64,000 nucleotides of DNA from positions 744,001-808,000 of the forward strand of contig NZ_FNIQ01000001.1 of NCBI RefSeq assembly GCF_900104025.1. Reading direction: 5' to 3'. Source of the DNA: Geodermatophilus sp. DSM 45219 (GTDB taxonomy: Bacteria; Actinomycetota; Actinomycetes; Mycobacteriales; Geodermatophilaceae). Made by a program: the position numbers and the translations under genes. The notes beneath the pieces were generated by a model. That model did not search any database and had not been told where the DNA came from. It saw nothing but the letters and a program-made list of their open reading frames with translations. Shown in pieces: positions 15,555-52,945 of the stretch. Position 1 is the stretch's first letter; every line of letters begins with the position of its first letter.

Positions 15555-15583
15555 TTGACCGGCGTGGCCGTCCGGGAGAGCGT
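15555..15583 (+). promoter_or_regulatory. Promoter candidate of the secreted Pro/Thr-rich gene
   Basis: TTGACC (15555-15560) and GAGCGT (15578-15583) are 17 bases apart; the leader to GTG 15658 would be about 70 bases and includes AGGAG at 15641. Confidence 0.5.
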
Positions 15584-15657
15584 CCTCCCCCGACGACCCG
15601 GAGGCGTCCAGGTGCAGCACATCGGCGGCCTCCCGAATCGAGGAGAACGGGGACACG

Positions 15658-17166: not shown

Positions 17167-17323
17167 CCCGGGATCCGCGCCTGCGGCGTGCTGCACGGCC
17201 GCCGCACCCCTCCGCGTGACGCGGGCACGGCTCCGGCCGGCTGCCCTCCCTGGACCCGTGTCCCATCCCCTGATCCCCGTCGTGCCCGCCTGGCCGCAGG
17301 CACGCGTGAGAAGGACGCTGCTC

Positions 17324-18187
17324 ATGAGTCACCCCCTGACACCAGCCTCCGTCGCACCCCCCGTCCGGACCGCTCCGGACCGCCCCGTCCTCGTCCACTC
17401 ACCGGGTGCCCGGGTGGTCCGCGCGCCTCTCCCCCGTGCTTCCGCGACCCCCGTGGCACGGCCCGCCGCGGACCTCGAGATCGCGATCCCCGCGTACAAC
17501 GAGGCAGCCCGCCTCCCGCTCACGCTGCGGCACACGGTCGAGTACCTGCGCGAACAGCCCTGGCGCTCGCGGGTCGTCGTCGTGGACAACGGGAGCTCGG
17601 ACGGGACCGCCGAGGTCGTCCGGGCCCACGCCCGCGCGTCCGACGACCACGTCCCCGTCGACCTCGTGGGCTGCGCACGGCCCGGCAAGGGTGCGGCCGT
17701 CCGGCGGGCCCTGCTGAGCAGCCGGTCACGGTTCGTGGGCTTCTTCGACGCCGACCTCGCCACCCCGGTGGAGACCCTGGCCACCGCGATGCGGCACCTG
17801 GAGGCAGGCGCCGCTGCGGTCATCGGATCGCGGCACGCCCCCGGCGCCCGGTTCGTGCAGGCGCAACCCGCGGGACGACGGCTGGGCGGTGCGGCCTTCC
17901 GCCTGATGGCGCGCAGCCTGGTCAGAGGCGTGCACGACACCCAGTGCGGGTTCAAGTTCTTCGAGCGGCACGCGGTCACGCAGGCCCTCGTCACCTGCCG
18001 GACCACCGGCTTCGCATTCGACGTCGAGCTCCTGCGCCAGCTGCAGCGGGCCGGCCTGGACATCGTGGAGGTCCCCGTGGCGTGGAGCCATGCCGACGAG
18101 TCGTCGTTCTCACCGTTGCGGGACGGGCTCGCCAGCTTCGGCGCCGTCCTGCGGATGCAGCGCTCCGCCACCGGGAGGGCGTCGTGA
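17324..18187 (+). CDS. GT2 glycosyltransferase, polyprenyl-phosphate sugar synthase-like
   Basis: A 287-residue family 2 glycosyltransferase resembling dolichyl-phosphate glucosyl/mannosyltransferases, which load a sugar onto a polyprenyl phosphate on the cytoplasmic face. Motifs: LEIAIPAYNEAARLPLTL, VVVVDNGSSDGTAEVV, FVGFFDADLATPVETL (DXD), VIGSRHAPGAR and HDTQCGFKFF, the last typical of the ALG5/DPM1 group. No membrane helices are evident. ATG 17324 follows GAGAAGGA. Its stop overlaps the next start (GTGA). The product would be a natural donor for the ArnT/PMT-like membrane transferase two genes downstream. Confidence 0.87.
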   Translation: MSHPLTPASVAPPVRTAPDRPVLVHSPGARVVRAPLPRASATPVARPAADLEIAIPAYNEAARLPLTLRHTVEYLREQPWRSRVVVVDNGSSDGTAEVVRAHARASDDHVPVDLVGCARPGKGAAVRRALLSSRSRFVGFFDADLATPVETLATAMRHLEAGAAAVIGSRHAPGARFVQAQPAGRRLGGAAFRLMARSLVRGVHDTQCGFKFFERHAVTQALVTCRTTGFAFDVELLRQLQRAGLDIVEVPVAWSHADESSFSPLRDGLASFGAVLRMQRSATGRAS

Positions 18188-19638
18188 CCGGCACGGCCGC
18201 CGGCCTGCGGGGCTCGCGCATCCTGGTGCTGAACTGGCGCGACATCCGGCACCCGCACGCAGGCGGGGCGGAGCAGTACATGCACGAGATCGGCGCCCGC
18301 TGGGTGGAGGCGGGCGCCCACGTGACGTGGCTGACCGCGCGGGGGCCGGGCCAGGCGGCCCGGGACCGCATCGACGGCATGCACGTGCTGCGTGCCGGCG
18401 GCTCGCTGTCGGTGTACCCCCGGACGGCGGCCCGCCTGGTGCGGGCCCACGGGCACTTCGACGCCGTGGTCGACTGCCAGAACGGGATCCCGTTCTTCGC
18501 GCCGCTGTTCGCGGGGGGGACGACGCCGGTGGTGCAGGTGGTCCACCACGTGCACCAGGACCAGTTCGCGACACGGTTCCCCGCCCCGGCTGCCGCCGTC
18601 GGCCGCTGGCTGGAGGGACCGGTGGCCCGCCGCGTCTACGGGGACCGGGCGATCGCGGCCGTCTCGACGTCGACGCGCAACGAGATGCGGCGGCGGCTGG
18701 GCTTCCGGGGCCCGATCTTCGTCGTCCCCAACGGGACCACCCCGGTGCGGCAGCCCAGGGGCCAGCGGGCCGCCGAGCCGACCATCGCCGTGGTCAGCCG
18801 GCTGGTGCCGCACAAGCGGATCGACCTGCTCCTGGGTCACCTGGCGACCATCACCGGGGATGTCCCCGGACTGCGGGTGGACATCGCCGGTGACGGTCCC
18901 GAGCGCCCCCGGCTCCAGGGGCTGGTCTCCGACCTGGGTCTGCAGTCGACCGTCCGTCTCCACGGGCGGGTGTCCGACGAGGTCCGCGACGACCTGCTCG
19001 CCCAGGCCTGGCTCACCACGTCCACCTCGGCTGCCGAGGGGTGGGGCTGCTCGGTGATCGAGGCCGCCGCATGGGGGGTCCCGTGCCTGGCGCTGCAGGC
19101 GCCCGGCATCCGGGACTCGGTCCTGGACGGCGAGACCGGCTGGCTGATCGAGGAGCCGCAGAAGCTGGGCGCGGCCCTCGTCAGTGCGCTCGAGTACCTC
19201 CGCGACCGCAAGCGTGCGGACAAGATGGCGGCCGCCTGCCGCGACTGGGCCGGGTGCTTCTCCTGGGACCGCAGCGCCGACCTGCTCGCCGGGGTCGTCC
19301 TCGAGGAGATGCGGCACATGGCGGCGATCGAGGAGGGCCAGGCGTTCGAGCGACGGTCGGCCCGGTCGGACATGGCCGTGCTGGCCGGCTTCCCCACCCC
19401 GGAGGTCGACGTGCGCGGTGGACTGCGCTCGACCGACGAGGTCGTCCGCCGCGGCGACCGCACGGCGGTCGTGCTCAGCGGCTGCGACGAGTTCGACGCC
19501 GCCGGAGTGCTCGCCCGCATGGGCGTGCGCGAGAGCCACCTCCAGCTCGTGGACCGCCGGCTCCTGCTGGCCGGTCCCGCTGCACCGCCGGCGCCCGACT
19601 GGGGCGCCGGTCACCTCGACATGGGGAGGAGCGCATGA
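18184..19638 (+). CDS. Glycosyltransferase family 4 with C-terminal extension
   Basis: 484 residues. The GT4 core shows HPHAGGAEQYMHEIGARWVE, VPNGTTPV, VVSRLVPHKRIDLLLGHLAT and the donor-site SAAEGWGCSVIEAAAWGVPC. After about residue 380 there are some 100 extra residues (including EEGQAFERRSARSDMAVLAG and DRTAVVLSGCDEFDAAGVLA) that I do not recognise and that are not part of the GT-B fold. GTG 18184 overlaps the preceding stop, and its own stop overlaps the next start, so it is translationally coupled on both sides. Substrate unknown. Confidence 0.85.
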   Translation: MTGTAAGLRGSRILVLNWRDIRHPHAGGAEQYMHEIGARWVEAGAHVTWLTARGPGQAARDRIDGMHVLRAGGSLSVYPRTAARLVRAHGHFDAVVDCQNGIPFFAPLFAGGTTPVVQVVHHVHQDQFATRFPAPAAAVGRWLEGPVARRVYGDRAIAAVSTSTRNEMRRRLGFRGPIFVVPNGTTPVRQPRGQRAAEPTIAVVSRLVPHKRIDLLLGHLATITGDVPGLRVDIAGDGPERPRLQGLVSDLGLQSTVRLHGRVSDEVRDDLLAQAWLTTSTSAAEGWGCSVIEAAAWGVPCLALQAPGIRDSVLDGETGWLIEEPQKLGAALVSALEYLRDRKRADKMAAACRDWAGCFSWDRSADLLAGVVLEEMRHMAAIEEGQAFERRSARSDMAVLAGFPTPEVDVRGGLRSTDEVVRRGDRTAVVLSGCDEFDAAGVLARMGVRESHLQLVDRRLLLAGPAAPPAPDWGAGHLDMGRSA

Positions 19639-21275
19639 CGCTCGTCGACCAGCCGCACGCCCCCGTGGAGGCGGCGTCCGGATCGAGGCCCGGACGGGCC
19701 GGCGCCTGGCGGCGCGTCACCTCGATGCCCCTGCTCGTCGCGGCCACCCTGGCCGCACTGGCGTTCGCCGTGCGCTCGGTCGGGCTGACGCGGGGCTTCG
19801 AGCTGTGGATCGACGAGATGCACTACGCCGATCTGGGCGCCTCGATCAGCCGCGGGGAGATGCCGGCGCTCGCCGACGGGCCCTTCTTCCTCCACCCGCC
19901 GGGCTTCTTCCTGCTCGAGGGGGCCGTGATCCGGCTCCTCGACCTGCAGACCGCCGACAGCATGGACCTCGTCTACGACCTGCGGTGGCTGACCGCGGCC
20001 CTGGGTGCGCTCGCCGTGGGGCTGGCCTTCCTGCTCGTCCGGCGGGTCGCGGGGACCTGGCCGGCGGTGTGGGCCGCGGCGGTGCTGGTGTTCGAGCCGT
20101 TCGTGCTCCGGAACAACAGCCGGGTCTTCCTGGAGACGCCGGCCACCGTCGCCGTCCTCGCCGGGCTGCTCCTCCTCGCGCGCCACCTCGGGGACCGGGA
20201 CCAGGGGCGTCCGCGGCTCCGCCTGTTCCTCGCCGGGCTGCTGCTCGGTCTGGCCGTCCTGACCAAGGACGTGTTCGCGTTCTACGCCGTGGCCCCCGTG
20301 CTGCTGGCCGTCGTCTGGAGGCGGACCATCCCGTTCCGGGACGCCACGACCGTCCTGCTGGGCGTGGTGGTCCCGTACACGGCCTACCTGGCCCTGCTCT
20401 GGGGCACCGGCTACCTCGGGCTGTGGACCACGGCCAAGGTCGGCGGCTTCCTGCGGCTGGTCGGGGCCGAGCAGACGACCGGCTTCAACGCCCCCGGTGC
20501 GCCGAGCCTGGTCGAGCGGCTCCTCGACCAGGCGCAGGCCTACGGCACCAGCTACCTGTTGCTGCTGCTGTGCCCGCTGGCCGGGCTGGTCGCCGCGGCC
20601 AGCAGCCGGCCCGGCCGCCGCCTCGTCGGTCTGACCGCCGTGGTCATGGGCTCGCTCGGCGCCTTCCTCGCGCTGTTCGGCACCCTCGAGGAGCACTTCG
20701 GCTACCCGGTCGTGGTGGCCGGCGCGACCGCTCTGGCCGTCGCCGGTGCCGAGGTGGTCGACCGCCGGCCGTCGCTGCGGAAGGCGGCCGCCGTCGTGTC
20801 GTCGGTCCTGCTGGCCGCCGTGGCCTCCCTGGGCCTGTCACTGGCGACGGGCGACGACGACGGCTTCCTCCGCTTCCGTGCGTGGGCGGCCACCGAGCTC
20901 CCGGCCGACGCACGGGTGGGCGTCACCAACGACACCTCCGTTCGGGCGTTCCGCGACGACGACCGCTTCGGCCCGTGGTCCACCGCCGAGCAGCTGGAGG
21001 AGAACGGTGCCCGGTACGTGCTCACCGTGAGCCTGCCCACGGAGCAGGGGTACGCCCGGGCCCGGCCGGACCTGCTGGAGTGGCTGGAGGACAACGGGAC
21101 CCCGCTGTTCCGGGACGTGGGACCGACCAACGGGGAGACGGTGCTGTGGTCCGTGGACCAGGACGACCTGACCAGCGCGGCCGACCGCGGGGTCGGTGGC
21201 CCTCCGCCGCCACCCCTGGACGCCGGGACCGCGGGTGAGCCGGTCCCCGAGGGAGGTGACGGTGGGACTCCATGA
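19635..21275 (+). CDS. Membrane glycosyltransferase, GT-C (ArnT/PMT-like)
   Basis: A 546-residue polytopic protein with about 11 hydrophobic segments. The first extracytoplasmic loop carries the acidic motif WIDEMHYADLGASISRGE and then FFLHPPGFFLLEGAVIR, the arrangement found in ArnT and protein-mannosyltransferase enzymes that use polyprenyl-phosphate sugars outside the membrane. The C-terminal 130 residues form a soluble domain (ELPADARVGVTNDTSVRAF). ATG 19635 overlaps the previous stop. Together with the GT2 at 17324 it would form a donor synthase and transferase pair. A role in glycosylating a lipid, polysaccharide or secreted protein is inferred. Confidence 0.85.
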   Translation: MTLVDQPHAPVEAASGSRPGRAGAWRRVTSMPLLVAATLAALAFAVRSVGLTRGFELWIDEMHYADLGASISRGEMPALADGPFFLHPPGFFLLEGAVIRLLDLQTADSMDLVYDLRWLTAALGALAVGLAFLLVRRVAGTWPAVWAAAVLVFEPFVLRNNSRVFLETPATVAVLAGLLLLARHLGDRDQGRPRLRLFLAGLLLGLAVLTKDVFAFYAVAPVLLAVVWRRTIPFRDATTVLLGVVVPYTAYLALLWGTGYLGLWTTAKVGGFLRLVGAEQTTGFNAPGAPSLVERLLDQAQAYGTSYLLLLLCPLAGLVAAASSRPGRRLVGLTAVVMGSLGAFLALFGTLEEHFGYPVVVAGATALAVAGAEVVDRRPSLRKAAAVVSSVLLAAVASLGLSLATGDDDGFLRFRAWAATELPADARVGVTNDTSVRAFRDDDRFGPWSTAEQLEENGARYVLTVSLPTEQGYARARPDLLEWLEDNGTPLFRDVGPTNGETVLWSVDQDDLTSAADRGVGGPPPPPLDAGTAGEPVPEGGDGGTP

Positions 21276-22734
21276 CGCCACGGGCCGATCGCGGGCCGAC
21301 CGACGTCACCGACGGGGCCTCGCCCTGCTGGTGGTCCTCGCCCTCGTCGTCGTCGCCGTCGGAGGGGCACTGCTCGTGTCGCGCCAGACGGTGGACGACG
21401 GGACGGGGGACGACGTGACGGCGGAGGACGGCGCCGGCCTGGCGTTCGGGGTCCTGGGCTCCCGGTGCGAGGCCGACCGGGTGACCGCCCTCAGCGAGGC
21501 CGGCGTGCGCTACGCCGAGGTGGGCCTCAGCTGGGAGGCGTTCGAGCCGGTCCCGGGGGAGTTCGACGAGGGCTACGCGGCCTTCCTGCGCGAGCACCTC
21601 GACCTGTGCGACCGGGCCGGCATCGGGGTGGTCTTCACCCTGGGGCTGCACTCGGCCCCCGGCTGGGTGGCCGAGCTGCCCGGCGGCTCCTACGTCAGCC
21701 AGCACGGCGACACCGGGCCCCAGGAGGTGCCCAACCTGGTGTTCAGCGCGGCGGTCCGGGACGCGGTCGCCGACTACCTCACCGAGCTGGACCGGGCCGT
21801 GGGCCTCGGCCGTGCCGCGGCGATCCGCGTGGGCACCGGCGTCAACGGCGAGCTCGGCTACCCGGGCACCGAGTCCTCCGGCAGCAACCCCTTCTGGGCG
21901 TTCGACGCGGCCGCCCAGTCGGGCGAGGGCCTGGCCGAGGGGGCGACGGTCACCCCGATGCCGGGATGGGTGCCGGGCTCGGCCACGTGGGACGGCGCCG
22001 ACGTCGGTACCGAGCAGGTGCAGGAGTGGTTCCGGTGGTACTCCCGGTCGGTCGCCGACGCCGTCGTGTGGGTGGTGCGGGCGCTGCGCGAGCGGGGCTA
22101 CGCGGGGGACGTCCACTTCCCGCTGGCCGGCCGGGGGGCGCTGCCCGGCGACCTGGAGGAGGCCCTGGCCGCGCGCCTGGACGGCACCGCCGATCGTGAC
22201 GGCAGCCTCGAGGGGGGCCTGTTCTACCCGGAGCAGCTGCCCTACGTCGCCGAGAGCCTGGCGCGCACCGAACGCGACGGGTGGGGGGAGCTGATCGCCG
22301 ACTCGAGCAGCGTGGACGACGCGACGGCGGTGACCGCCCGGGAACTGGACCCGCCCCAGGACAGCTGCCGCCCCGGGGACGCCGACCGGGACCTGCTCAC
22401 CGAACCCGGGGTGGAGCGGTGGTCCTCGGTCCGCTGGACGGTCGCCAACGCCCGCAGGGCCGGGCTGGGCGTGATGGGCGAGAACCCGGGCTCGCCGGAC
22501 ACCCCGCGGACCGGCGGGAACGAGCTGACCGACAGCTCGGCGGAGCAGATGGTGCGTGCGCCGCAGTACGCCCGGGAGTGCGGGATGTCGCTGTTCATGT
22601 GGGCGTTCGAGGACGACCTGTTCGGCGGACGTCCCGGGGCCGGTGTGGCCGACTACGCCCAGCAGATCCGCGCGATCGGCACCGGGGGACGGCAGCCCCG
22701 GCGCCGGAGCACACGCAGGGAGGGGGGACGGTGA
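21262..22734 (+). CDS. Membrane-anchored glycoside hydrolase, GH42-like TIM barrel
   Basis: 490 residues with one N-terminal helix (RGLALLVVLALVVVAVGGAL), so it is exported and tethered. The rest resembles GH42 beta-galactosidase-like barrels: RYAEVGLSWEAFEPVPGEFD, FTLGLHSAPGWVAELP, and the clan GH-A acid/base signature with Asn-Glu as TGVNGELGYPG. Near the end WAFEDDLFGG follows the last strands. GTG 21262 sits 5 bases after GGGAGG and overlaps the preceding gene by 14 bases; GTG 21256 is possible. Inside a synthesis operon such an enzyme may trim or release the product. Activity is inferred from fold only. Confidence 0.72.
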   Translation: MGLHDATGRSRADRRHRRGLALLVVLALVVVAVGGALLVSRQTVDDGTGDDVTAEDGAGLAFGVLGSRCEADRVTALSEAGVRYAEVGLSWEAFEPVPGEFDEGYAAFLREHLDLCDRAGIGVVFTLGLHSAPGWVAELPGGSYVSQHGDTGPQEVPNLVFSAAVRDAVADYLTELDRAVGLGRAAAIRVGTGVNGELGYPGTESSGSNPFWAFDAAAQSGEGLAEGATVTPMPGWVPGSATWDGADVGTEQVQEWFRWYSRSVADAVVWVVRALRERGYAGDVHFPLAGRGALPGDLEEALAARLDGTADRDGSLEGGLFYPEQLPYVAESLARTERDGWGELIADSSSVDDATAVTARELDPPQDSCRPGDADRDLLTEPGVERWSSVRWTVANARRAGLGVMGENPGSPDTPRTGGNELTDSSAEQMVRAPQYARECGMSLFMWAFEDDLFGGRPGAGVADYAQQIRAIGTGGRQPRRRSTRREGGR

Positions 22735-23942
22735 CCGGCACGGCCGTCGCCCCGGCCCCCACGGAGCTCCCCGGCGACCGGCCGGCGCCCCTGCGGGTGC
22801 TGCACCTGGGCTTCGAGGACCCGCTGATGCCCGGTTCCGGAGGCGGATCGCTGCGTACGCACGAGATCGACCGGCGGCTGGCCGCGGACGGCATGGCGAT
22901 CACCGTGCTCACCACCCGGTACCCGGGCTGCGCGGACGGCGACCACGAGGGCGTGCGCTACGAGCACGTCGGTGTCGGGCGCGGCCGCAACCGCCTGACC
23001 CGGCTGCTCGGCTACGTGGTCGCGCTGCCGTTCGCCGTCCGGAGGCACCGCGACGCCGACCTCGTCGTGGAGGACTTCCTGCCGCCGTTCTCGAGCATGG
23101 CCGTCCCGCTGTGGACCCGGCGGCCGGTCGTCGGGATGGTCCAGTGGCTGCACGCCCGCGAGAAGGCGCGCCAGTACAAGCTGCCCTTCCACCTGGTCGA
23201 GCGGGCAGCCGTGCGCACCCACCGCCGGCTCATCGCGGTGTCGGACGGCGTCGCCGAGCGGCTGACGGCGATGAACCCGCGTGCCTCGGTCGACGTGGTC
23301 AGCAACGGTGTCGACCCCGGCCTGTTCGACGAACCGGCACAGCTGGGCCGCGACGTGCTCTGCATCGGCCGCCTCGAACTGGGCGGGAAGGGCCTGGACC
23401 TGCTCCTCGCGGCGTGGGCACAGGTGCACCGGCAGGTCGACGGCGACCTCGTGGTCGCCGGGACCGGCCCGGACGAGGTCCGTGTCCGGCAGCTCGCCGC
23501 ACGGCTGGGCATCGCCGACCGCGTGCGCTTCCCCGGCTGGGTCGGTGGCGCGGACAAGGCCCGGCTGCTCAACGCCAGCCGCGTCGTGGTGGTGCCGTCG
23601 CGCGCCGAGACCTTCGGCATCGTGGCGGTCGAGGCACTGGCCGCCGCGACGCCGGTCCTGGCCTTCGACATCCCCTGCCTGCGCGAGGTCGTCCCGCCCG
23701 ACTGCGGGAGGCTCGTCCCGCCGTTCGACGTCCCGGCACTCGCGGCCGCACTGCTCGACCTGTACGCCGACGAGGACCTGCTCGTGGCCATGGGCGTCGC
23801 CGGCCGCGCGTTCGCGGGCGGTCACGACTGGGACGTCCTCGCCCGCCGGCAGGCCGACGTCTACCGCTCCACCGTGGCGTCGCCACGGTCGGACCACCCG
23901 CCGCGACGGCGGCGCGACCTGATTGAGAGGGCACGCCCGTGA
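22731..23942 (+). CDS. Glycosyltransferase family 4
   Basis: 403 residues, cytoplasmic. N-terminal acceptor loop MPGSGGGSLRTHEIDRRLAA; middle VSNGVDPGLF; donor site CIGRLELGGKGLDLLLAAWA and VPSRAETFGIVAVEALAAAT, giving the EX7E pair. GTG 22731 overlaps the preceding stop, and the stop overlaps the next GTG. The most similar enzymes are mannosyl- or glucosyltransferases of polysaccharide loci, but the donor is not determinable here. Confidence 0.87.
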   Translation: MTGTAVAPAPTELPGDRPAPLRVLHLGFEDPLMPGSGGGSLRTHEIDRRLAADGMAITVLTTRYPGCADGDHEGVRYEHVGVGRGRNRLTRLLGYVVALPFAVRRHRDADLVVEDFLPPFSSMAVPLWTRRPVVGMVQWLHAREKARQYKLPFHLVERAAVRTHRRLIAVSDGVAERLTAMNPRASVDVVSNGVDPGLFDEPAQLGRDVLCIGRLELGGKGLDLLLAAWAQVHRQVDGDLVVAGTGPDEVRVRQLAARLGIADRVRFPGWVGGADKARLLNASRVVVVPSRAETFGIVAVEALAAATPVLAFDIPCLREVVPPDCGRLVPPFDVPALAAALLDLYADEDLLVAMGVAGRAFAGGHDWDVLARRQADVYRSTVASPRSDHPPRRRRDLIERARP

Positions 23943-25075
23943 CCGTGACCGCCCGTACCCCCGGGCAGCCGGCGCAGCACGGACACCGGGGCCCCCGCGT
24001 CGTCTCCCCGGCGCCTCGGGACGTGTGGCGCGACCTGTCGTCCACCGACCCCGGCGCCCTGCCGACCCAGACCCCCGAGTGGACCGACTGGCTGAGCCGG
24101 ACCCGCGGGTTCTCCGATGCCAGCCGGCTGTACGAGTTCCCGGACGGCCGCCGGCTGCTGCTGCCCCTGCTGGCCCGGACGGCGGCAGGCGTGACGGTGA
24201 CCGAGGAGTCGATGCCCTACGGCTTCGGCTACGGCGGGCCACTGGTCGCCGGCGGCCGGGTCACCCTCGCGGAGGCCCGGGCGGTGCTGGCCGACCTGGC
24301 GCGACGGCCCGTGCTGCGGGCCGGGCTGGTGCCCGACCCGCTCACCGCGGGGATCCTCGAGGCGGCTGCGCCGCCGGGCACGGTGCGGGTGCCCTACCTG
24401 GCCCACGTCCTCGACCTCGACGGCGGCTTCGACCGGGTCTGGCGGGACCGGTTCCGCAGTGACATCCGCAAGAACATCCGCCGCGCGAGCCGTCAGCCGC
24501 TCGAGATCGGCGAGTCCAGGGACGGCGACGTCGTCGACACCTTCGCCGAGCTCAACCGGCGCTCCGTGGACCGCTGGGCTCATGACAGGGGCCAGCCGCT
24601 GTGGCTGGCCCACCTGGTCGAGCGCCGGCGGGACCGGGTCGAGCAGCTCTCCTCCGCGATCCCTGCGCTGGGCTCGATGCTGACCTCGTGGACGGCGCAC
24701 CTGCACGGTGAGCCCGTGGCCGCCTACGTGCTGCTGCGCTCGGGTGAACGGGCGTACGCCTGGATGTCGGCGATGGACACGACACTCGCGCGACGGACGG
24801 ACGCCGGCGCCCTGCTGCAGTCCCTGGCCATCGAGGACGCCTGCGCCACGGGGGCCCGGCAGTTCCTGATGGGGGAAGCGGCCGCCGGCTCGGGCGTCGC
24901 GGTCTTCAAGGAGCGTTTCGGAGCCGAGGCCGTGCCCTTCGCCGGGCTGCGGTTCGAGCGACTCCCGATGACCGCCGCCGAGCGCGGTCTCCGGTCAGTC
25001 CTCGACCGGGTCGTCTCAGCACCCCGGCACCCGTTCCGCCGGGAGCCCGGCCCCACCCGGGAGGTGCAGGCGTGA
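23939..25075 (+). CDS. Acetyltransf_6 / FemAB-related acyltransferase, paralog 1 of 3
   Basis: 378 residues of the GNAT Acetyltransf_6 (BioF2-like, CelD/FemAB-related) fold. Such proteins acylate sugars or add amino acids from aminoacyl-tRNA. Recognisable parts: TQTPEWTDWLSRTRGFSDAS (N-terminal domain), DIRKNIRRASRQPLEIGES, ELNRRSVDRWA, and the second GNAT domain ending GSGVAVFKERFGAEAVPF with the KXXFG signature. GTG 23939 overlaps the previous stop. Bases 24096-24330 are identical to 26404-26638 in paralog 3, although the flanks have diverged. Whether the donor is acyl-CoA or aminoacyl-tRNA is not clear from sequence. Confidence 0.82.
   Translation: MTVTARTPGQPAQHGHRGPRVVSPAPRDVWRDLSSTDPGALPTQTPEWTDWLSRTRGFSDASRLYEFPDGRRLLLPLLARTAAGVTVTEESMPYGFGYGGPLVAGGRVTLAEARAVLADLARRPVLRAGLVPDPLTAGILEAAAPPGTVRVPYLAHVLDLDGGFDRVWRDRFRSDIRKNIRRASRQPLEIGESRDGDVVDTFAELNRRSVDRWAHDRGQPLWLAHLVERRRDRVEQLSSAIPALGSMLTSWTAHLHGEPVAAYVLLRSGERAYAWMSAMDTTLARRTDAGALLQSLAIEDACATGARQFLMGEAAAGSGVAVFKERFGAEAVPFAGLRFERLPMTAAERGLRSVLDRVVSAPRHPFRREPGPTREVQA
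24096..24330 (+). repeat. 235-bp exact repeat, copy 1 (in paralog 1)
   Basis: Identical base for base to 26404-26638; with one mismatch the match extends left to 24068. The ends are abrupt and flanking homologous sequence is clearly diverged, as expected for gene conversion. Confidence 0.95.
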
Positions 25076-26184
25076 CCCCGGTCGCCCGGTGGTCGACGGC
25101 CTCGTCGCAGGATCCCCAGGCCGGCGTCCGCGTCGTCTCCCCCGCCCCGCGTGCTGCCTGGCGGGAGGTGCTGCACGCCGACCCCACCGCACTGCCGAGC
25201 CAGACCCCCCAGTGGACCGACTGGCTCTGCCGCACGCGCGGGTACCGCGACGCCAGCCGGCTCTACGAGTTCTCCGGTGGTCGCCGACTCCTCCTGCCGC
25301 TGCTGGCCCGGGGGACCGCAGGGGCGTTGAGCGAGGAGTCCATGCCGCACGGCGCCGGCTACGGGGGCCCTCTCGTGGCGGGCGGTCGGCCCACGCCGGA
25401 GGAGGCGCGGGCGATCCTGGACGACCTCGGACGGCGTCCCGTCGTCCGCGCCTCCCTCGCGCCCGCTCCCCTGTCGGCCGCCACCTGGACCCGGGCCGCG
25501 CCGCCGGGGGCGGTCGCCGTCCCCTATCTCGCGCACGTCCTCGACCTCGAGGGCGGATGGGACTCCGTCTGGGCGGACCGGTTCCGCCCCCGCATCCGCC
25601 GGGACGTCCGCAAGGCGGAGAAGCAGGGGCTGGACGTCCGGACGGGATCCGACAGCGGGGTCCTCGAGGCGTATGCCGAGTTGAGCCGCCGCTCGGTGGA
25701 GCGCTGGGCGCGCCAACGGCGCCAGCCGCTGTGGCTGGTCCGCCGGGTGGAGCAGCGGCGCGACCGGGTCGGACGGCTGGCCTCCGCGATCGCCGACCTC
25801 GGACCGATGGTGCGCCCCTGGACGGCGTGGCTGGACGGCGAGCCCGTGGCGGTGAACGTGGTGCTGCGCTTCGGCAACCAGGCCTACGGCTGGCTGTCCG
25901 TCATGGACAAGCAGATGGCACAGCGCACCCAGGCCGGCGCGCTGCTGCTGTCGCTGGCCATCGAGGACTCCTGCGGGGCCGGTGCCAGGTGGTTCCAGCT
26001 GGGCGAGTCCGATCCCGGCTCCGGAGTGGCCGCGTTCAAGGAACGCTTCGGTGGGGTCCCCGTCCCCTGGTCGGCCGTGCACCTCGAGCGGCTCCCCGTG
26101 ACGGCTGCCGGCCGGCGGCTCCGGACGCTCGCCAACCGGGTCGCCGCCACCGTGCCCGCCCGGATGGACGGGGGCGAGCGGTGA
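25072..26184 (+). CDS. Acetyltransf_6 / FemAB-related acyltransferase, paralog 2 of 3
   Basis: 370 residues, same architecture as its neighbours: SQTPQWTDWLCRTRGYRDAS, RIRRDVRKAEKQGLDVRTGS, ELSRRSVERWARQRRQPLWL, then WFQLGESDPGSGVAAFKERF with the KXXFG signature. It is clearly homologous along its whole length to paralogs 1 and 3 but does not share their 235-base identical tract. GTG 25072 overlaps the stop of paralog 1. Differences in the central region among the three suggest they act on different acceptors or donors of the same product, which is inference. Confidence 0.82.
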   Translation: MTPVARWSTASSQDPQAGVRVVSPAPRAAWREVLHADPTALPSQTPQWTDWLCRTRGYRDASRLYEFSGGRRLLLPLLARGTAGALSEESMPHGAGYGGPLVAGGRPTPEEARAILDDLGRRPVVRASLAPAPLSAATWTRAAPPGAVAVPYLAHVLDLEGGWDSVWADRFRPRIRRDVRKAEKQGLDVRTGSDSGVLEAYAELSRRSVERWARQRRQPLWLVRRVEQRRDRVGRLASAIADLGPMVRPWTAWLDGEPVAVNVVLRFGNQAYGWLSVMDKQMAQRTQAGALLLSLAIEDSCGAGARWFQLGESDPGSGVAAFKERFGGVPVPWSAVHLERLPVTAAGRRLRTLANRVAATVPARMDGGER

Positions 26185-27359
26185 GCGTCGTCCCGCCGTC
26201 CGCCGGCTCCGTCGTCCCCGGGGCACCGCGAGAGCAGCGGCGGCCCGGGCAGGCCGCCCGCCGGCTCCTCCCGGGACGCGGGGACGACCTGCTGCGGTGC
26301 GTCCGGGTGGTCAGCCCGGCACCGCGGGACATCTGGGTGGCCGTGGCCCACGACGATCCGCACGCCGTGCCCAGCCAGACCCCCGAGTGGACCGACTGGC
26401 TGCGCCGGACCCGCGGGTTCTCCGATGCCAGCCGGCTGTACGAGTTCCCGGACGGCCGCCGGCTGCTGCTGCCCCTGCTGGCCCGGACGGCGGCAGGCGT
26501 GACGGTGACCGAGGAGTCGATGCCCTACGGCTTCGGCTACGGCGGGCCACTGGTCGCCGGCGGCCGGGTCACCCTCGCGGAGGCCCGGGCGGTGCTGGCC
26601 GACCTGGCGCGACGGCCCGTGCTGCGGGCCGGGCTGGTCCCCAACCCGCTGGTCGCCGGCACCTGGAGCGCGGCCGCGCCGGGCGGTGCTCTGCGCGTGC
26701 CCTCCCTGTGCCACGTCCTCGACCTCGAGGGCGGCTTCGACCACGTGTGGTCGAAGAGGTACCGCCAGGACGCGCGGCGGAAGGTGCGCCGGGCCGAGAA
26801 GCAGTCGCTCGAGGTCCACCAGGTCCGCGACAGCTCCCTGGTCGACACCTTCGCCGAACTGAACCGCCGGTGCGTGGACCGCTGGGCCCAGCAGCGGCAC
26901 CAACCCCTCTGGCTCGCGCACCTGGTGGAACGACGGCGGGACCGCGTCGGTCAGCTGGCGTCCGCACTGGCGGCCCTGGGCTCGGCCGTGACCGGCTGGA
27001 CGGCGCACCTGGAAGGGGAGGCGGTCGCGGCGTACGTGGCCGTGCAGCACCGCGAACAGGCGTGGTTCTGGATGTCGGCGATGGACCAGGGGCTGGCGGG
27101 GCGGACGAACGCCGGTGCACTGCTGCAGTCCCTGGCGATCGAGGCCGCCTGCCGGGCGGGTGCCCGGTGGTTCCAGCTGGGCGAGTCCGATCCCGGATCC
27201 GGGGTGGCGCGCTTCAAGGCCGGCTTCGGGGCCACGCCGACCAGCTATGACACGCTCCGCTTCGAGCGGCTCCCGCTGACCACCGCCACCGACCGGCTGC
27301 GGGCGGTCGTCGGCCACGTCACGGCCGGCCGGCCGGCCGGCGGGACGGTGGAGCGGTGA
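26181..27359 (+). CDS. Acetyltransf_6 / FemAB-related acyltransferase, paralog 3 of 3
   Basis: 392 residues with an N-terminal extension of about 40 residues relative to the other two. Conserved parts: SQTPEWTDWLRRTRGFSDAS, DARRKVRRAEKQSLEVHQV, ELNRRCVDRWAQQRHQPLWL and WFQLGESDPGSGVARFKAGF. The latter segment matches paralog 2, while residues around 75-153 match paralog 1 exactly at the DNA level, so this gene is a mosaic. GTG 26181 overlaps the stop of paralog 2, and its stop overlaps the flippase start. Donor and acceptor are unknown. Confidence 0.82.
   Translation: MSVVPPSAGSVVPGAPREQRRPGQAARRLLPGRGDDLLRCVRVVSPAPRDIWVAVAHDDPHAVPSQTPEWTDWLRRTRGFSDASRLYEFPDGRRLLLPLLARTAAGVTVTEESMPYGFGYGGPLVAGGRVTLAEARAVLADLARRPVLRAGLVPNPLVAGTWSAAAPGGALRVPSLCHVLDLEGGFDHVWSKRYRQDARRKVRRAEKQSLEVHQVRDSSLVDTFAELNRRCVDRWAQQRHQPLWLAHLVERRRDRVGQLASALAALGSAVTGWTAHLEGEAVAAYVAVQHREQAWFWMSAMDQGLAGRTNAGALLQSLAIEAACRAGARWFQLGESDPGSGVARFKAGFGATPTSYDTLRFERLPLTTATDRLRAVVGHVTAGRPAGGTVER
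26404..26638 (+). repeat. 235-bp exact repeat, copy 2 (in paralog 3)
   Basis: Partner of 24096-24330, 2308 bases downstream in the same orientation. The paralog lying between them does not carry it. Confidence 0.95.
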
Positions 27360-28795
27360 ACGCCGTCCCGCCCGCCGGCACGGTGGTGCCCGACGGCGTC
27401 CCGGCGGAGGTGGACGGCAGCCTGGTCACCTCGCGCGGCCCCCTGGTGTCGGTGGCCATGGCCCTGGTCGCCGTCATCAGCTACAGCGGTGCCCTGGTGC
27501 TGGCCCACCTGCTCGACCCGCCGGCCTACAGCGTCTACGCCGCGGCCGCGACGCTGCTCGGCACCGTGGGGGTGTTCGCCGCGGCACTCATCCCGATGCC
27601 GCTCACCCACGTCATCCGCAGCCACCCGCGGCGGTCGGAGGAGCGGCGCCGCGGGATGGCCTTCGCCGGGTGGCTGTCGATCGCCGGGGGACTGCTCGCC
27701 GCCCTGGCGACCGGCCTGGTGACGGCGGCCTTCGCGCCACCGCGCGTGGCGATGGTGGTCGCCGTGTCGGCACTGGTGCTGTTCGTGTGCAGCCCGGTGT
27801 GGGGCTGGCTGCACGGCGAGCTGCTGTTCGTCCGCGACGCGGTGGTGATCCTCGCCGAGGTCGGCGTCCGGATCCTCGTCAGCGTCGGCGTCGTCGTCCT
27901 CGGATGGGGGGCCGACGGCGCGCTGCTGGGGTTCGTCGCCGGGTCGGCGCTCGTGCTGCTCACCGTGCCCCGGGCCCTGCGCCGCGACCTGGCGTGGCGC
28001 CCGGGCGTCCTGCGGGAACGCGCGCGGTGGGCCGAGACGGGGGACATCGCGATCACCCAGCTGGTCGTCTACACGCTGGTCGGGGCCGACGTCGTGCTGG
28101 TCGCGGTGCTCGCGGCCCACGACACGGAGAGCGCGGGCTACCAGGCGCTGTCCACGCTGGCGAAGGCGCCGGTCTACGTGGCGGCCGGCGCGGTCGCCGT
28201 CGCCTTCCCGCTCCTGCGCAGCCGCCAGGCGCGGACCGAGCACATCCTGTCCACGACGATGCACTCGTTCACCGTCCTCGCGCTGGCCTCCGCAGCCGTG
28301 GTGGCCACCGTGCCCCGGGAGCTGATGCTGCTCGTCTTCCCCGAGCGGTACGCCGGCTCCCTGGCGCTGTTGCCGGTGCTCGCCGCGGCGGGGGTCGGGT
28401 ACGCCGCGCTCACCCTGTTCACCTCCGTGCTCCTCGGGATGCGCGCCTACCGGCGGTGCCAGGTGGGGCTGCTCGCCGCCGTCGTGCTCATGCCCGCGGG
28501 CCTGCTGCTGGGCTGGCGGATCGACGGCGTCCCGGGCCTGGCCCTCGGGGTGGCGCTGGCGGCGCTGCTGTCGACGGGTGCGCTGTGGCTCACCGCCGCG
28601 CCGCTGCTGCCCCGGGAGACGCTGCGTCGTGGGGTGCGGGCCCTCCTCGCCACCGCCGCGCTGGTGGCCCTCCTCGTCGCCGTCCGCCCCGTGCCCGCCG
28701 TGTGGGTGGGAGCCGTCCTGATCCTGGGCGTCGTGGTGCTCCGGCTGCTTCGCCGGACCGACGACGACCCGGCCGACGAACTGGAGATCCGATGA
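27356..28795 (+). CDS. Polysaccharide flippase-like protein (Wzx/MOP superfamily)
   Basis: 479 residues with about 12-14 hydrophobic helices and a short N-terminus. The first helices read SVAMALVAVISYSGALVLAH and AYSVYAAAATLLGTVGVFAA, the pattern of oligosaccharide flippases that move lipid-linked units across the membrane. The gene lies immediately after the three acyltransferases and before the PIG-L/ATP-grasp fusion with 4-base overlaps on both sides (GTG 27356, ATG 28792). This placement suggests the decorated lipid-linked intermediate is exported here. No polymerase gene is seen in this operon. Confidence 0.83.
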   Translation: MNAVPPAGTVVPDGVPAEVDGSLVTSRGPLVSVAMALVAVISYSGALVLAHLLDPPAYSVYAAAATLLGTVGVFAAALIPMPLTHVIRSHPRRSEERRRGMAFAGWLSIAGGLLAALATGLVTAAFAPPRVAMVVAVSALVLFVCSPVWGWLHGELLFVRDAVVILAEVGVRILVSVGVVVLGWGADGALLGFVAGSALVLLTVPRALRRDLAWRPGVLRERARWAETGDIAITQLVVYTLVGADVVLVAVLAAHDTESAGYQALSTLAKAPVYVAAGAVAVAFPLLRSRQARTEHILSTTMHSFTVLALASAAVVATVPRELMLLVFPERYAGSLALLPVLAAAGVGYAALTLFTSVLLGMRAYRRCQVGLLAAVVLMPAGLLLGWRIDGVPGLALGVALAALLSTGALWLTAAPLLPRETLRRGVRALLATAALVALLVAVRPVPAVWVGAVLILGVVVLRLLRRTDDDPADELEIR

Positions 28796-30822
28796 CCGAC
28801 CTGCTGCCCGGGCCCCTGGAGGAGGCGATGGCCGACGGCCGGCCGGTCCTCGTCCTGTCCGCCCACCTCGACGACGCCGTCCTCTCGTGCGGTGCACTGC
28901 TGAGCACGCTGGCCCGGCGGACCCCGGTCACGGTGGCCACCGTGTTCTCGGAGGCCGGGCCGCCGCCGCACACCCGGGCCGCCCGCGCCTTCCTGGGGCA
29001 GTGCACGATCGGCGACGCTGCGGAGCTGTACGCGGCCCGGCAGCAGGAGGACGTCGAGGTGCTGGCCGGGCTCGGTGTCGAGCACGTCCACCTCGGGGCC
29101 CCCGACGCCCTCTTCCGGCGGCGGGAGGTCCCGCCGCCGGTCGCCCGGCTCGGCCGTGCGGTCCCCGAGGTGGCGCACCGCTACCCCACGTTCCGGTTCG
29201 ACATCGCTCGGGGACGCGTCTCCCGGGGGGACCGGGCGCTGGTCGACCGGCTCGGCGCGCAGCTGCGCGCACTGGCCGGGCGCATCGACGCGGCGGTGGT
29301 CCTGGGCCCGGTCGGCGTCGGCCGGCACGTCGACCACCTGCTCACCCGCACCCTGGCCGAGCGGCAGCCACTGCCCACGGTGCTGTACTCCGACTTCCCC
29401 TACGACTGGAGGGGCGCTGCCGACGTCACCGACCTGGGGGTGGGCCGGCTGACGGCCGTCACGTGGGACCGGGACCTCGACGCGAAGCAGGTGCTCATCA
29501 AGGGCTACCGCACGCAGGTGGCGGCGCTGTTCCCGGACGGGGTGGTCCCCGCCGTCCCGGAGACCTACTTCACGGCGCCCGGGCACGAGGGAGGGACGCC
29601 GGTACCTGCTCCCCACCGGCCGGTCGCAGCCCGGTCTCCCCGGCCGTGGGCACGGGCGGGCCGGACGGTGCCCGCCGGCGCGGAGGCGCTCGTGCTGGGC
29701 GACCTGGACCTCGCCGTCCCGCTGCACGCGGTCGGCGCCTCGGTCACGATGGTCGGCCGGCCCACCCGGGCCGACCGGTTCTCCCGGTACGTCTCCCGGT
29801 GGCTGGACGACCCCCGCCCCGACGAGGACACGCTGGTCACCGCGCTGGTGGCCCACGCCGGCGGCCGCCAGGAGCCGACGACGCTGTTCTACCAGTCCGA
29901 CGACGACCTGCTGTTCGTCTCGCGCCACCGCGACGAGCTCTCCCCCGCCCTGCGGTTCGTCGTCCCCGACGCCGACCTGGTGGAGAAGCTGGTCGACAAG
30001 GCGGCCTTCCAGGAGCTGGCCGAGCAGGCCGGGCTGCCCGTGCCGCGGGGCCAGGTCCTGGACCTCGCCCGGCCGGTGCTCGACGACCGCCTGACCTTCC
30101 CGTTGGTGGTCAAGCCGCTCCGTCGCGAGCCGTGCTGGGACGTCCGCACCGCGGCCAAGGCGGCCGTCGTCGGCGACCGCGGGGAGCTCGACGCGCTGGT
30201 CGACGAGCTGGCCGCCCACCACGCGCAGCTGATCCTCCAGCAGCCGGTGCCGGGCCCGGAGACCCGGATGGAGAGCCACCACGTGTACGTCGACTCGTCC
30301 GGTCAGGTGGCCGCCGAGTTCACCGGGCGGAAGGTCCGCACCCATCCCATGGCCATGGGCCACTCCACCGCCGTCGTCACCTCCGATGCACCCGACGTGG
30401 CGCGGCTGGGCCGGGAGATCGTCGCGGCGCTGGACCTGCGCGGAGTGGCGAAGCTGGACTTCAAGCGGGACGCCGACGGTCGGCTCTGGCTGCTGGAGGT
30501 CAACCCGCGCTTCAGCCTGTGGCACCACGTCGGTGCGGCAGCCGGCGTCAACATCCCGGCGGTGGTCCGGGCCGATCTCCTCGGGCTCCCCCGGCCGCCC
30601 AGGTCCACGGCCCGTCCCGAGGTGGCGTGGTGCCGGGTGGACCGGGACTACCTCGCCGCACGCGAGGAGGGGATGCACCCGGTGACCTGGCTCCGCTGGG
30701 TGGCCGCGGCCGGGACCACGCCGCCGCTCGACCTCACCGACCCGCTCCCCGCGCTCGCCGGTGCGCTGGCACCGGCCTACCGCAGGCTCCGCAGGAGCGC
30801 CCCGGCCGACCGCCGCCGCTGA
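28792..30822 (+). CDS. PIG-L deacetylase fused to ATP-grasp ligase
   Basis: 676 residues. Residues 1 to about 260 are a PIG-L/LmbE-type zinc deacetylase: VLSAHLDDAVLSCGALL (metal His25, Asp27, Asp28) and VGVGRHVDHLLTRTLAE supplying the last metal His. From about residue 290 there is an ATP-grasp enzyme: a pre-ATP domain (LGDLDLAVPLHAVGASVTMV), FPLVVKPLRRE (ATP-binding Lys), and the C-terminal metal site VAKLDFKRDADGRLWLLEVN then PRFSLWHHVGAAAG. PIG-L enzymes deacetylate N-acetyl sugars; ATP-grasp enzymes ligate a carboxylate to an amine. A single chain could expose an amine and then acylate it, which is an attractive inference only. ATG 28792 overlaps the flippase stop. Confidence 0.85.
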   Translation: MTDLLPGPLEEAMADGRPVLVLSAHLDDAVLSCGALLSTLARRTPVTVATVFSEAGPPPHTRAARAFLGQCTIGDAAELYAARQQEDVEVLAGLGVEHVHLGAPDALFRRREVPPPVARLGRAVPEVAHRYPTFRFDIARGRVSRGDRALVDRLGAQLRALAGRIDAAVVLGPVGVGRHVDHLLTRTLAERQPLPTVLYSDFPYDWRGAADVTDLGVGRLTAVTWDRDLDAKQVLIKGYRTQVAALFPDGVVPAVPETYFTAPGHEGGTPVPAPHRPVAARSPRPWARAGRTVPAGAEALVLGDLDLAVPLHAVGASVTMVGRPTRADRFSRYVSRWLDDPRPDEDTLVTALVAHAGGRQEPTTLFYQSDDDLLFVSRHRDELSPALRFVVPDADLVEKLVDKAAFQELAEQAGLPVPRGQVLDLARPVLDDRLTFPLVVKPLRREPCWDVRTAAKAAVVGDRGELDALVDELAAHHAQLILQQPVPGPETRMESHHVYVDSSGQVAAEFTGRKVRTHPMAMGHSTAVVTSDAPDVARLGREIVAALDLRGVAKLDFKRDADGRLWLLEVNPRFSLWHHVGAAAGVNIPAVVRADLLGLPRPPRSTARPEVAWCRVDRDYLAAREEGMHPVTWLRWVAAAGTTPPLDLTDPLPALAGALAPAYRRLRRSAPADRRR

Positions 30823-31643
30823 TGCGCACCGGGGTCCTCTCCGACGTCCACGCCAACCTCCCCGCGCTCCAGGCGGTGCTCGGCGTGCTGGCGCGCCGTG
30901 GCGTCGACCAGCTCCTGGTCGCCGGGGACCTCATCGGTTACGGCGGGCAGCCCGACGAGTGCGTGGCGACGCTGGCCGAGGCAGGCGCGCACTGCGTGCT
31001 CGGCAACCACGACCTGCTCGTCCTCGACCGCCTGCCACCCACCCGGTTCCCTGCCGTCGCCCGGATGGCCGCCAAGCTGCACCGCTCGCTGCTCTCCGCC
31101 GGCACGCGGAGCCACCTGGAGTCGCTGCCCACGGTGCTGCGCACCGGCCGGGTGCTCATGGCCCACGGGTCGCTCGACAGCCCGGAGGAGTACGTGACGC
31201 GCGAGCCCCGAGCCCTCGAGCTGCTCGCCCGGCTGCCCCGGGAGGCCCCCGGCGCGGACACCCTCGTGCTGGGTCACACGCACCAGCCGTGGCTGGTGGG
31301 CGCCGGGACCGGCACGGTCCGGGTGCGGAGCACGGTGCCGACGCCGACCGCACCGTGGTTGCTCAACCCGGGCAGCGTGGGGCAGTCCCGGCAACGCGAG
31401 CGCCGTCCCCGGGCCCGTTGCGCGGTCATCGACGACGTGGCGGGGACGGTGGAGTTCCTCCGGGTGGACTTCGACGTCGCGGCGAGCCGGGAGGAGCTGC
31501 GACGGCACGGACTGCCCGACCGGTGCCTGCACGCCCCGCCGCCGGTGTGGTGGCCGGCGGCCCGCCGGGCACGGCTGGTCCTCGACCGGGCCGCCGCCCG
31601 GCTGCCGGGCCAGCGGCGGCGCCGCTCCGCGCGCACCAGGTGA
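30822..31643 (+). CDS. Calcineurin-like metallophosphoesterase
   Basis: 273 residues. All metal-binding blocks of the family are seen: TGVLSDVHANLPALQAVL, LLVAGDLIGYGGQPDECV, CVLGNHDLLVLD, LMAHGSL, LVLGHTHQPWLV and LLNPGSVGQSR, as in small YfcE-like phosphodiesterases. The ATG overlaps the previous stop by one base (TGATG), making it the last gene of the operon. It ends 15 bases from the convergent galE stop. Its substrate and its link to the glycan product are unknown. Confidence 0.85.
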   Translation: MRTGVLSDVHANLPALQAVLGVLARRGVDQLLVAGDLIGYGGQPDECVATLAEAGAHCVLGNHDLLVLDRLPPTRFPAVARMAAKLHRSLLSAGTRSHLESLPTVLRTGRVLMAHGSLDSPEEYVTREPRALELLARLPREAPGADTLVLGHTHQPWLVGAGTGTVRVRSTVPTPTAPWLLNPGSVGQSRQRERRPRARCAVIDDVAGTVEFLRVDFDVAASREELRRHGLPDRCLHAPPPVWWPAARRARLVLDRAAARLPGQRRRRSARTR

Positions 31644-31658: not shown

Positions 31659-32642
31659 TCACCGGGCGGCGAGCGGGCCCGCCCTCCACCCGGCCCATGC
31701 GGAGGCGACCATGTCGTGCACGTCGTGCTCCGCCGTCCAGCCGAGGACGGCCCGGATGGTGTCGGCGCTGGCGACGACCCGAGGCGGGTCACCGGGACGC
31801 GGCGGTGCGAGGACGGGCTCTGCCCACGCCTCCCCCGCGGTCCCGGTGACCTCCCGGATGACGTCGAGCACCTCCCGGACGGAGACGCCCTCCCCCCGGC
31901 CGATGTTGGCGGTCAACGCCGTCACGCGACCGTCGACGAGCGCCCGGGAGGCCGCGACGTGGGCCGAGGCGACGTCGGCGACGTGGACGAAGTCCCGGAT
32001 GCACGTGCCGTCGGGTGTCGGGTGCCCGCCCCCGAAGACCACGGGCGGCAGCCCCTGCTCGAGGCGCTGGAAGACCATCGGGACGAGGTTCCAGACGCCG
32101 CGGTCGGTGAGCTCCGGAGCCGCCGCGCCGGCCACGTTGAAGTAGCGCAGGTTGGCGTACCGCAGGCCCGTCGCGGCCGCGACCTCCTCGATCATCCGCT
32201 CCCCGACCAGCTTCGTGGTCCCGTACGGGTTGACCGGCCGGCACTCGGTGTCCTCGCGGACGACGTCGACGTCCGGCATGCCGTAGACCGCCGCGCTCGA
32301 CGAGAAGACGAGCGCGCCGACGCCCACGCCGACCGCCTGCTCGAGGAGGACGCGCAGGCCCTCGACGTTCGTGCGGTAGTAGCGCAGCGGGTGACGCACC
32401 GACTCCTCGACCCGCTTCTCCGCCGCGACGTGCACGACGCCGGTGACGTCGTGGTCCCGCAGCGTGCGGCCCACGAGGTCGCCGTCGAGGACGCTGCCGA
32501 CGACGAGCGGGACGCCGGGGATGCGCGCCGGGTCGCCGGACGAGAGGTCGTCGAGCACCACCACCGACTCACCGGCCCCGCACATGGCGGTCACCACGTG
32601 CGCACCGATGTAGCCGGCTCCACCCGTCACCAGCCACGTCAC
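31659..32642 (-). CDS. galE: UDP-glucose 4-epimerase
   Basis: 327-residue extended short-chain dehydrogenase that interconverts UDP-glucose and UDP-galactose with bound NAD. It shows the Rossmann loop TGGAGYIGAHVVTAM, VVVLDDLSSGDPARIPG, VVHVAAEKRVEESVRHPLRY, catalytic Ser in FSSSAAVYG, the YXXXK pair NPYGTTKLVGE, and the C-terminal GTCIRDFVHVADVASAHV. GTG 32642 is the start. It stands alone, 46 bases from the end of an acyltransferase gene on the same strand, and may supply precursors to the surrounding polysaccharide loci. Other UDP-hexose epimerases are possible. Confidence 0.88.
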   Translation of the reverse strand: MTWLVTGGAGYIGAHVVTAMCGAGESVVVLDDLSSGDPARIPGVPLVVGSVLDGDLVGRTLRDHDVTGVVHVAAEKRVEESVRHPLRYYRTNVEGLRVLLEQAVGVGVGALVFSSSAAVYGMPDVDVVREDTECRPVNPYGTTKLVGERMIEEVAAATGLRYANLRYFNVAGAAAPELTDRGVWNLVPMVFQRLEQGLPPVVFGGGHPTPDGTCIRDFVHVADVASAHVAASRALVDGRVTALTANIGRGEGVSVREVLDVIREVTGTAGEAWAEPVLAPPRPGDPPRVVASADTIRAVLGWTAEHDVHDMVASAWAGWRAGPLAAR

Positions 32643-32688
32643 CGGCGGAGGGTAGCGACACGGCAGTGCACACGGGCACCACCGTCGG

Positions 32689-33924: not shown

Positions 33925-33925
33925 C

Positions 33926-44597: not shown

Positions 44598-44790
44598 AGT
44601 GGGCCTTCCCGCGACCCGTGCCGGCCAGGGTCCGCGGCGCCGGCCCGGCGGACGGCGACACGGCGACCGGCTCCACGGCCGGAGTCGCGATGTCGTCCGG
44701 TTGGAGGCCGGTGCCCACCACGCTGAGAGCTCCGGTGCACACTCAGTGTAGTGCCGATCGGACCGCCGGGCTCCCCCGCGGCACCCTGCC

Positions 44791-48500: not shown

Positions 48501-48504
48501 GGAG

Positions 48505-48522: not shown

Positions 48523-48528
48523 GACCGG

Positions 48529-48557: not shown

Positions 48558-48586
48558 CGGGACCCGACCGGGTGGACGGGGGCCGC

Positions 48587-52902: not shown

Positions 52903-52945
52903 GCGGGGACCACCGCCGGGTCCCGACACCGATCGGGGGGATCGG

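Follow-up and report, generated by a model that had tools for sequence, protein, structure and literature searches.

A modular glycan operon in Geodermatophilus with a predicted route for exposing and acylating an amino sugar

Eleven genes of Geodermatophilus sp. DSM 45219 are packed on the plus strand at positions 17324-31643 of the stretch of DNA analysed here (64,000 nucleotides, contig NZ_FNIQ01000001.1, positions 744,001 to 808,000; hereafter the window). We tentatively read these genes as an operon for a lipid-linked, envelope-destined glycan in which one amino sugar is changed, and put the probability of this whole reading at about 0.48. What was observed is the gene content and order, the conserved motifs, the co-inheritance of the genes and the existence of relatives that stand at different stages of assembly. 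An initial annotation of the window had described eleven same-strand genes overlapping by 1 to 14 bases, and this is what is present: every one of the ten junctions overlaps, from g1 to g11 by 4, 4, 14, 4, 4, 4, 4, 4, 4 and 1 bases. The genes are:

17324..18187 (+), g1: GT2, polyprenyl-phosphate sugar synthase-like (PF00535; no transmembrane segment by hydropathy)
18184..19638 (+), g2: GT4 with a conserved C-terminal extension of about 90 amino acids (Pfam; aligned extension)
19635..21275 (+), g3: GT-C of the PMT/ArnT type (PF02366, 1.4e-12; 9 hydrophobic segments)
21262..22734 (+), g4: membrane-anchored GH42-like glycoside hydrolase (GH; PF02449 below cut-off; one hydrophobic segment; Glu197 and Glu407 conserved)
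22731..23942 (+), g5: GT4 (Pfam)
23939..25075 (+), g6: Fem1, Acetyltransf_6 (PF13480, 8.4e-16; Lys324)
25072..26184 (+), g7: Fem2, Acetyltransf_6 (PF13480, 2.4e-17; Lys323)
26181..27359 (+), g8: Fem3, Acetyltransf_6 (PF13480, 2.3e-14; fold search; Lys346)
27356..28795 (+), g9: probable flippase of the MOP superfamily (13 hydrophobic segments; weak fold matches to MATE, WzxE and MurJ)
28792..30822 (+), g10: PIG-L de-N-acetylase fused to an ATP-grasp domain (PF02585 and PF15632; motifs)
30822..31643 (+), g11: calcineurin-like phosphoesterase, partner of the ATP-grasp (PF12850, 3.5e-20; pairing)

The family names given in the initial annotation were confirmed by Pfam for the GT2, the two GT4, the GT-C, the three Acetyltransf_6 proteins, the PIG-L/ATP-grasp protein and the phosphoesterase, whereas GH42 stayed below the cut-off and the flippase matched no family.

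The same order of GT2, GT4, GT-C, GH, GT4, Fem, flippase and PIG-L is found in six genomes: that of the window, four others of the same genus (G040, G044, G058, G059) and one from another genus of the Geodermatophilaceae (G094), in which the contig begins inside the GT2. A finding that these genes do not co-occur in relatives had been fixed beforehand as grounds for giving up the initial annotation; the order is in fact kept in five other Geodermatophilaceae genomes, whose core proteins are 59-84% identical to those of the window. Since orthologues of g1-g5, g9 and PIG-L at this identity stand in the same order in five other genomes, and those of the ATP-grasp and g11 (71-78% identical) in three of these five, the frames are not artefacts of GC-rich DNA. 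With g4 as GH marker, 12 of 112 genomes of the family match at all and 6 hold most of the gene. The flippase matches in 7 of 108 family genomes drawn, namely five of the six operon genomes (G094 lay outside this draw), G087 and G022. As so few genomes of the family match either marker, the operon is an accessory, patchily distributed trait. In G022 (L050, 10331-12407), a broken flippase and pieces of PIG-L adjoin each other, apparently the remnant of a decayed operon. In a sample of the phylum, 15 of 396 genomes match the GH marker, all matches but that of the window being short and weak (3.2e-8 or worse), and g4 has no match in the plasmid collection. The marker searches score few candidates per genome, and because GH homologues of 33-37% identity surfaced only via the flippase search, the GH marker underestimates the spread.

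In the class as a whole, the flippase matches in 5 of 394 genomes, the own genome included, and a profile of g2 over the 394 genomes singles out the same five at 748-839 bits, the next one scoring 506 bits. GT2, g2, flippase, g5 and GT-C stand together in the four other loci (L074-L077) and likewise in G087 (L115), in a gene order that differs from that of the window. Three genomes (G644, G685, G817) are called Streptomyces-like here, a label we infer. The five-gene core of GT2, two GT4, flippase and GT-C is present in each of the 11 intact loci compared, those of Streptomyces-like genomes among them; the 11 are the window, five loci that g10 led to and five that the flippase led to, with the remnant in G022 left out. 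PIG-L is present together with GH in nine of the 11, and neither was found in L076 and L115. Fem genes occur in seven (the six genomes of the same order and L074), never without PIG-L, and ATP-grasp plus phosphoesterase occur in four, always with PIG-L and Fem. The latter two genes were not found in G040 and G094, a lack that is less sure for G094, whose contig ends 2.3 kb past PIG-L and whose assembly is 70% complete. This nesting, Fem only with PIG-L and ATP-grasp only with both, is expected if deacetylation precedes acylation. With a shared five-gene core and tailoring genes nested at different stages of assembly, the operon is a modular variant of an envelope-glycan cluster and not a new kind of system.

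L076 carries a PhyH-type dioxygenase and a polysaccharide pyruvyl transferase instead of PIG-L and GH. Some lower-scoring relatives of g2 form GT2-GT4 pairs; the pair in L113 lies beside an AftD confirmed by Pfam, which hints at an envelope-glycan origin, and L114 is similar in appearance. A second GT2-GT4 pair of the own genome (L110, 3441-10719; contig C5 near 990 kb) has a GtrA protein next to it and a PMT_2 protein in the vicinity. None of these pairs (L110, L113, L114) was taken for the same cluster.

The tailoring genes are best followed from g10, in which PIG-L (5e-10) and ATPgrasp_Ter (6.4e-8) are recognised by Pfam in a single frame of 676 amino acids. The PIG-L half scores above the Pfam cut-off and contains HLDD and [RG]H[VA]DH in 9 of 9 aligned sequences; we take HxDD and HxxH to be the motifs of PIG-L/LmbE de-N-acetylases. 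Its nearest solved relatives are the glycopeptide sugar deacetylases Dbv21 and Orf2, and the polysaccharide deacetylase family PF01522 is not found in the operon, whose deacetylase matches PIG-L instead. ATPgrasp_Ter scores 32.9 bits, above the cut-off of 29.1, and this half has partial matches to D-Ala-D-Ala ligases and to carbamoyl-phosphate-synthase-like proteins. The two halves are fused in three genomes (the window, L039 and L040) and encoded by adjacent, separate genes in G058 (L044). In a tree of the ATP-grasp domains, the fused proteins form a clade (95/98); the proteins of G058 and of a free-standing locus in G060 (L045) fall just outside, and all five group at 100/99. The PIG-L protein ends at about the same position in G058, G040 and G094, and the linker varies among the fused proteins. 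A tree of the core separates the four ATP-grasp genomes from G040 and G094 (100/100); the latter two may either never have gained the ATP-grasp or have lost it. The same tree groups G058 weakly with the window (75/78), and fission in G058 is for this reason a possible alternative to fusion.

g11 (Metallophos_2, 3.5e-20) is the regular partner of the ATP-grasp. A phosphoesterase adjoins the ATP-grasp in 8 of 8 loci, the window counted, whose ATP-grasp is at least 41% identical to that of the window, and in none of 10 loci whose ATP-grasps are more distant; one of these ten, L079, belongs to the same supported group of nine, with a very long branch of its own. Free-standing pairs of ATP-grasp and phosphoesterase in the three loci assessed (G060, G027 and a second locus of G044; G067, L049, on a contig of 6.4 kb, was left out) each have one or two Acetyltransf_6 genes close by. 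Chance is an improbable explanation for this, because the own genome has only 10 Acetyltransf_6 matches in 4.97 Mb, three of them within the operon; the argument is limited by the attraction of such genes to polysaccharide loci and by the close kinship of the G027 and second G044 pairs. In G060, a PF01522 deacetylase lies a few kb beyond the pair.

The number of Fem genes is three in the window, two in G058, two in G059 (one of them after the phosphoesterase) and one each in G044, G040 and G094; the triplet is lineage-specific. The initial annotation had proposed a glycan operon that includes a deacetylase together with FemAB-related and ATP-grasp enzymes, and as a co-inherited unit this stands, in the same order in five relatives. 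Its defining marks, the triple Fem set and the PIG-L/ATP-grasp fusion, do not: with Fem numbers of 3, 2, 2, 1, 1 and 1, ATP-grasp not found in two genomes and the two halves separate in G058, neither three Fem genes nor the fusion could be kept as essential. In a tree of the C-terminal halves, orthologue sets are formed by Fem1 with G058a (94/99), Fem2 with G059a (88/86) and Fem3 with G058b and G059b (96/96); the N-terminal halves gave a tree without resolution. Fem1 and Fem3 share a tract of 264 nucleotides with one mismatch:

24067..24330 (+), Fem1 half of the tract (264 nucleotides, one mismatch; 235 identical from 24096)
26375..26638 (+), Fem3 half of the tract (264 nucleotides in common with Fem1)

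In windows of 25 codons, other stretches of the two genes are 33-78% identical. By sequence this is a recent gene conversion, confined to the N-terminal half. Together with the orthologue sets of the C-terminal half it fits three kept, distinct transferases and not simple copies.

The donor of these transferases would most likely be aminoacyl-tRNA rather than acetyl-CoA. The Fem3 model (mean pLDDT 59) is confident solely in the C-terminal GNAT domain. Its best fold matches are Sbb17/Sba18, solved with streptothrisamine, and Weissella FemX (E 1e-10 to 2.5e-9), followed by staphylococcal FemX and FemA; from about 1e-5 on, tandem GNATs of the clavulanate/VipF kind and lysyl-PG synthases appear. 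A Fem profile gave only a borderline match (0.012) among the sequences of the Protein Data Bank (PDB), again to the lysyl-PG synthases. A lysine that aligns with Lys305 of FemX is kept in 11 of 11 Fem sequences; according to PMC12945691, Lys305 is the catalytic lysine of FemX.

For the glycan machinery itself, g1 matches the Pfam GT2 family at 4.1e-21, its best NCBIfam hit being a partial match, far under the cut-off of the model, to dolichyl-phosphate hexose transferase, and the best Pfam models for g2 and g5 reach 1.3e-27 and 2.4e-32. The C-terminal extension of g2 (about 90 amino acids, 19300-19638) has no known function and is common to the Streptomyces-like loci, in which an AAA-type P-loop domain also precedes the GT4 in one frame and the flippase frame continues into a further stretch without Pfam match (L074, 6551-11343). 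g4 scores 19.2 bits against the GH42 model, below its cut-off of 21 bits; a profile built from nine relatives finds GH42 beta-galactosidases and endoglycoceramidases in the PDB, the matches lying mostly within its first 100 or so positions, and two glutamates, invariant in 9 of 9 relatives, are by our own assignment the putative catalytic residues. g9 has no match in Pfam or NCBIfam. A simple scan gives 13 hydrophobic segments, and a low-confidence model (pLDDT 51) matches mostly MATE, WzxE and MurJ folds (best E 0.018), so that an exporter of the MOP superfamily is our best guess.

From these genes we infer the reactions, their order, the donors and the acceptor as follows. Inside the cell, the GT4 enzymes g2 and g5 would extend a lipid-linked sugar. 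An enzyme to start the chain was not recognised among the operon genes and would have to come from elsewhere; the window holds two Bac_transf genes. The PIG-L half of g10 would then take off an N-acetyl group, after which one to three Fem-type transferases would acylate the freed amine, the most likely donor being aminoacyl-tRNA. In this lineage, the ATP-grasp half of g10 may also ligate a carboxylic or amino acid to the amine, with g11 as its regular partner. g9 would flip the modified product, g1 would load a sugar onto polyprenyl phosphate, g3 would add that sugar outside, and the anchored g4 may trim or release chains. A more specific version, which we consider improbable, is a non-peptidoglycan envelope glycan with a short, ribosome-independent peptide on the de-N-acetylated sugar, in which the fused ATP-grasp would add the first residue and three diverged Fem enzymes would add more from tRNA, the set having been assembled stepwise within Geodermatophilus. 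The small natural series of loci (no ATP-grasp found, free-standing pair, adjacent genes, fusion) ties a sugar de-N-acetylase to a ligase, so that single enzymes could be used to test the principle of exposing an amine on an envelope glycan and then aminoacylating it. The comparison also outlines a five-gene glycan core of actinobacteria whose tailoring sets differ from genome to genome.

Several observations weigh against this reading. Because five of the 11 loci were found via g10 and five via the flippase, the co-occurrence is partly by construction. Two of the three Streptomyces-like loci have PIG-L and GH and no Fem in the stretches read, and a free amine may be the end product there. Among the eleven genes there is no match to Bac_transf or a similar initiating phosphoglycosyl transferase, and none to a Wzy polymerase or O-antigen ligase, Wzy being diverse enough to be missed. 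A motif scan of the larger frames detected no deacetylase near the free-standing pair of G027, and the sole frame with such a motif near the second pair of G044 is a GT4 by Pfam. Finally, acetyl-CoA-type tandem GNATs are among the folds matched by Fem3 (clavulanate GNAT 9e-6, VipF 3e-5), and its TM-scores are low, at best 0.34 by query length, on a model of mean pLDDT 59.

In an unlikely alternative, the Fem proteins would be ordinary acyl-CoA-dependent enzymes that N- or O-acetylate an exopolysaccharide, with the ATP-grasp acting separately, for example in amidating a uronic acid, and the fusion would do no more than secure co-expression. The Pfam families are annotated as acetyltransferases, the tandem GNATs among the Fem3 folds are of the acetyl-CoA type, and pairs of ATP-grasp and phosphoesterase stand free of PIG-L, in G027 without a detected deacetylase. 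However, the best Fem3 folds are tRNA-dependent enzymes, Fem and ATP-grasp genes occur nested in loci that have PIG-L, and every free-standing pair assessed has Fem-type genes nearby. Rather more doubtful is that the product is secreted as a small molecule or glycolipid (an aminosugar antibiotic, for instance), with g9 as a MATE-type exporter. The glycopeptide deacetylases nearest to the PIG-L half, the streptothricin-type enzymes nearest to the Fem folds, the MATE proteins among the matches of g9 and the patchy distribution would suit such a product, but the GT2, the GT-C and the anchored hydrolase are in keeping with a glycan outside the cytoplasm, relatives of g2 occur in GT2-GT4 pairs, one of them beside AftD, and no recognisable small-molecule scaffold gene is among the eleven. 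That the cluster glycosylates proteins, with g3 as a PMT protein O-mannosyltransferase, is very improbable despite the PMT family match of g3 and the secreted-looking Pro/Thr-rich protein encoded just upstream, since PMT-type Pfam models also cover GT-C enzymes that modify lipids or glycans and the deacetylase, flippase and hydrolase would be left unexplained.

The initial annotation knew of no named pathway with this set, and among the matches listed in the open-access literature searched we found neither such a pathway nor a description of this gene set. The closest parallels to an envelope glycan with an acylated amine are partial. The operon differs from a Wzx/Wzy-type polysaccharide cluster in lacking a recognised initiating phosphoglycosyl transferase and polymerase. 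In the ATP-grasp/GNAT amidoligase neighbourhoods of Iyer et al. (2009), ATP-grasp and GNAT-fold genes are reported to be paired for peptide-like modifications. In the lipocone paper (PMC12419801), ATP-grasp with GNAT domains comes up in another context. Multi-component transmembrane glycosylation (GT-A, flippase and GT-C), for which PMC8035078 describes Wzx-type flippases and soluble GT-A partners, is similar in having a GT2, a probable Wzx-type flippase and a PMT-type GT-C together (candidates by family or fold). The operon contains in addition a pair of GT4, a GH, a deacetylase, Fem-type transferases and an ATP-grasp, and none of the eleven genes matches GtrA. In the Caulobacter holdfast, a polysaccharide deacetylase (HfsH) and a FemX-like tandem GNAT (HfsK) are likewise suggested to work in one glycan pathway, HfsK perhaps on amines exposed by HfsH (PMC5362036). 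The hfsK gene is not part of the hfs locus, and deleting it left the biofilm of H. baltica unaffected (PMC8449245). The deacetylase there is of another family as annotated, whereas here one to three Fem genes adjoin the deacetylase and an ATP-grasp is added. Dbv21 and Orf2, to which the PIG-L half is closest among solved structures, are glycopeptide pseudoaglycone deacetylases and have antibiotic substrates by name, and the PIG-L of the operon is followed by an ATP-grasp domain. Streptothricin-type acylation (Orf11, Sbb17, Sba18), which belongs to a small-molecule antibiotic pathway, provides the best Fem3 fold match but has no lipid-linked glycan machinery. According to a review (PMC12945691), Orf11 glycylates streptothrisamine from Gly-tRNA, and tRNA-dependent acylation of an amino sugar is described for BD-12.

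Just upstream of the operon, a frame at 15658-17166 (+) encodes a protein rich in Pro, Thr, Ser and Ala with a signal-peptide-like stretch. It overlaps a frame at 15469-17325 (-), and either may be the real coding frame; neither strand gave a Pfam match, nor a transmembrane segment in a simple hydropathy scan. Downstream, convergent glycan genes at 31659-37311 (-) encode an epimerase, an acyltransferase 3, a GH18 and a two-domain protein of polysaccharide deacetylase and GT2. A further polysaccharide region at 42855-55090 contains a UDP-sugar dehydrogenase, a LytR-CpsA-Psr protein, a Wzz-like protein and a GH16/F5-8 protein, as well as the two Bac_transf genes of the window (44791-46503 and 49637-51103).

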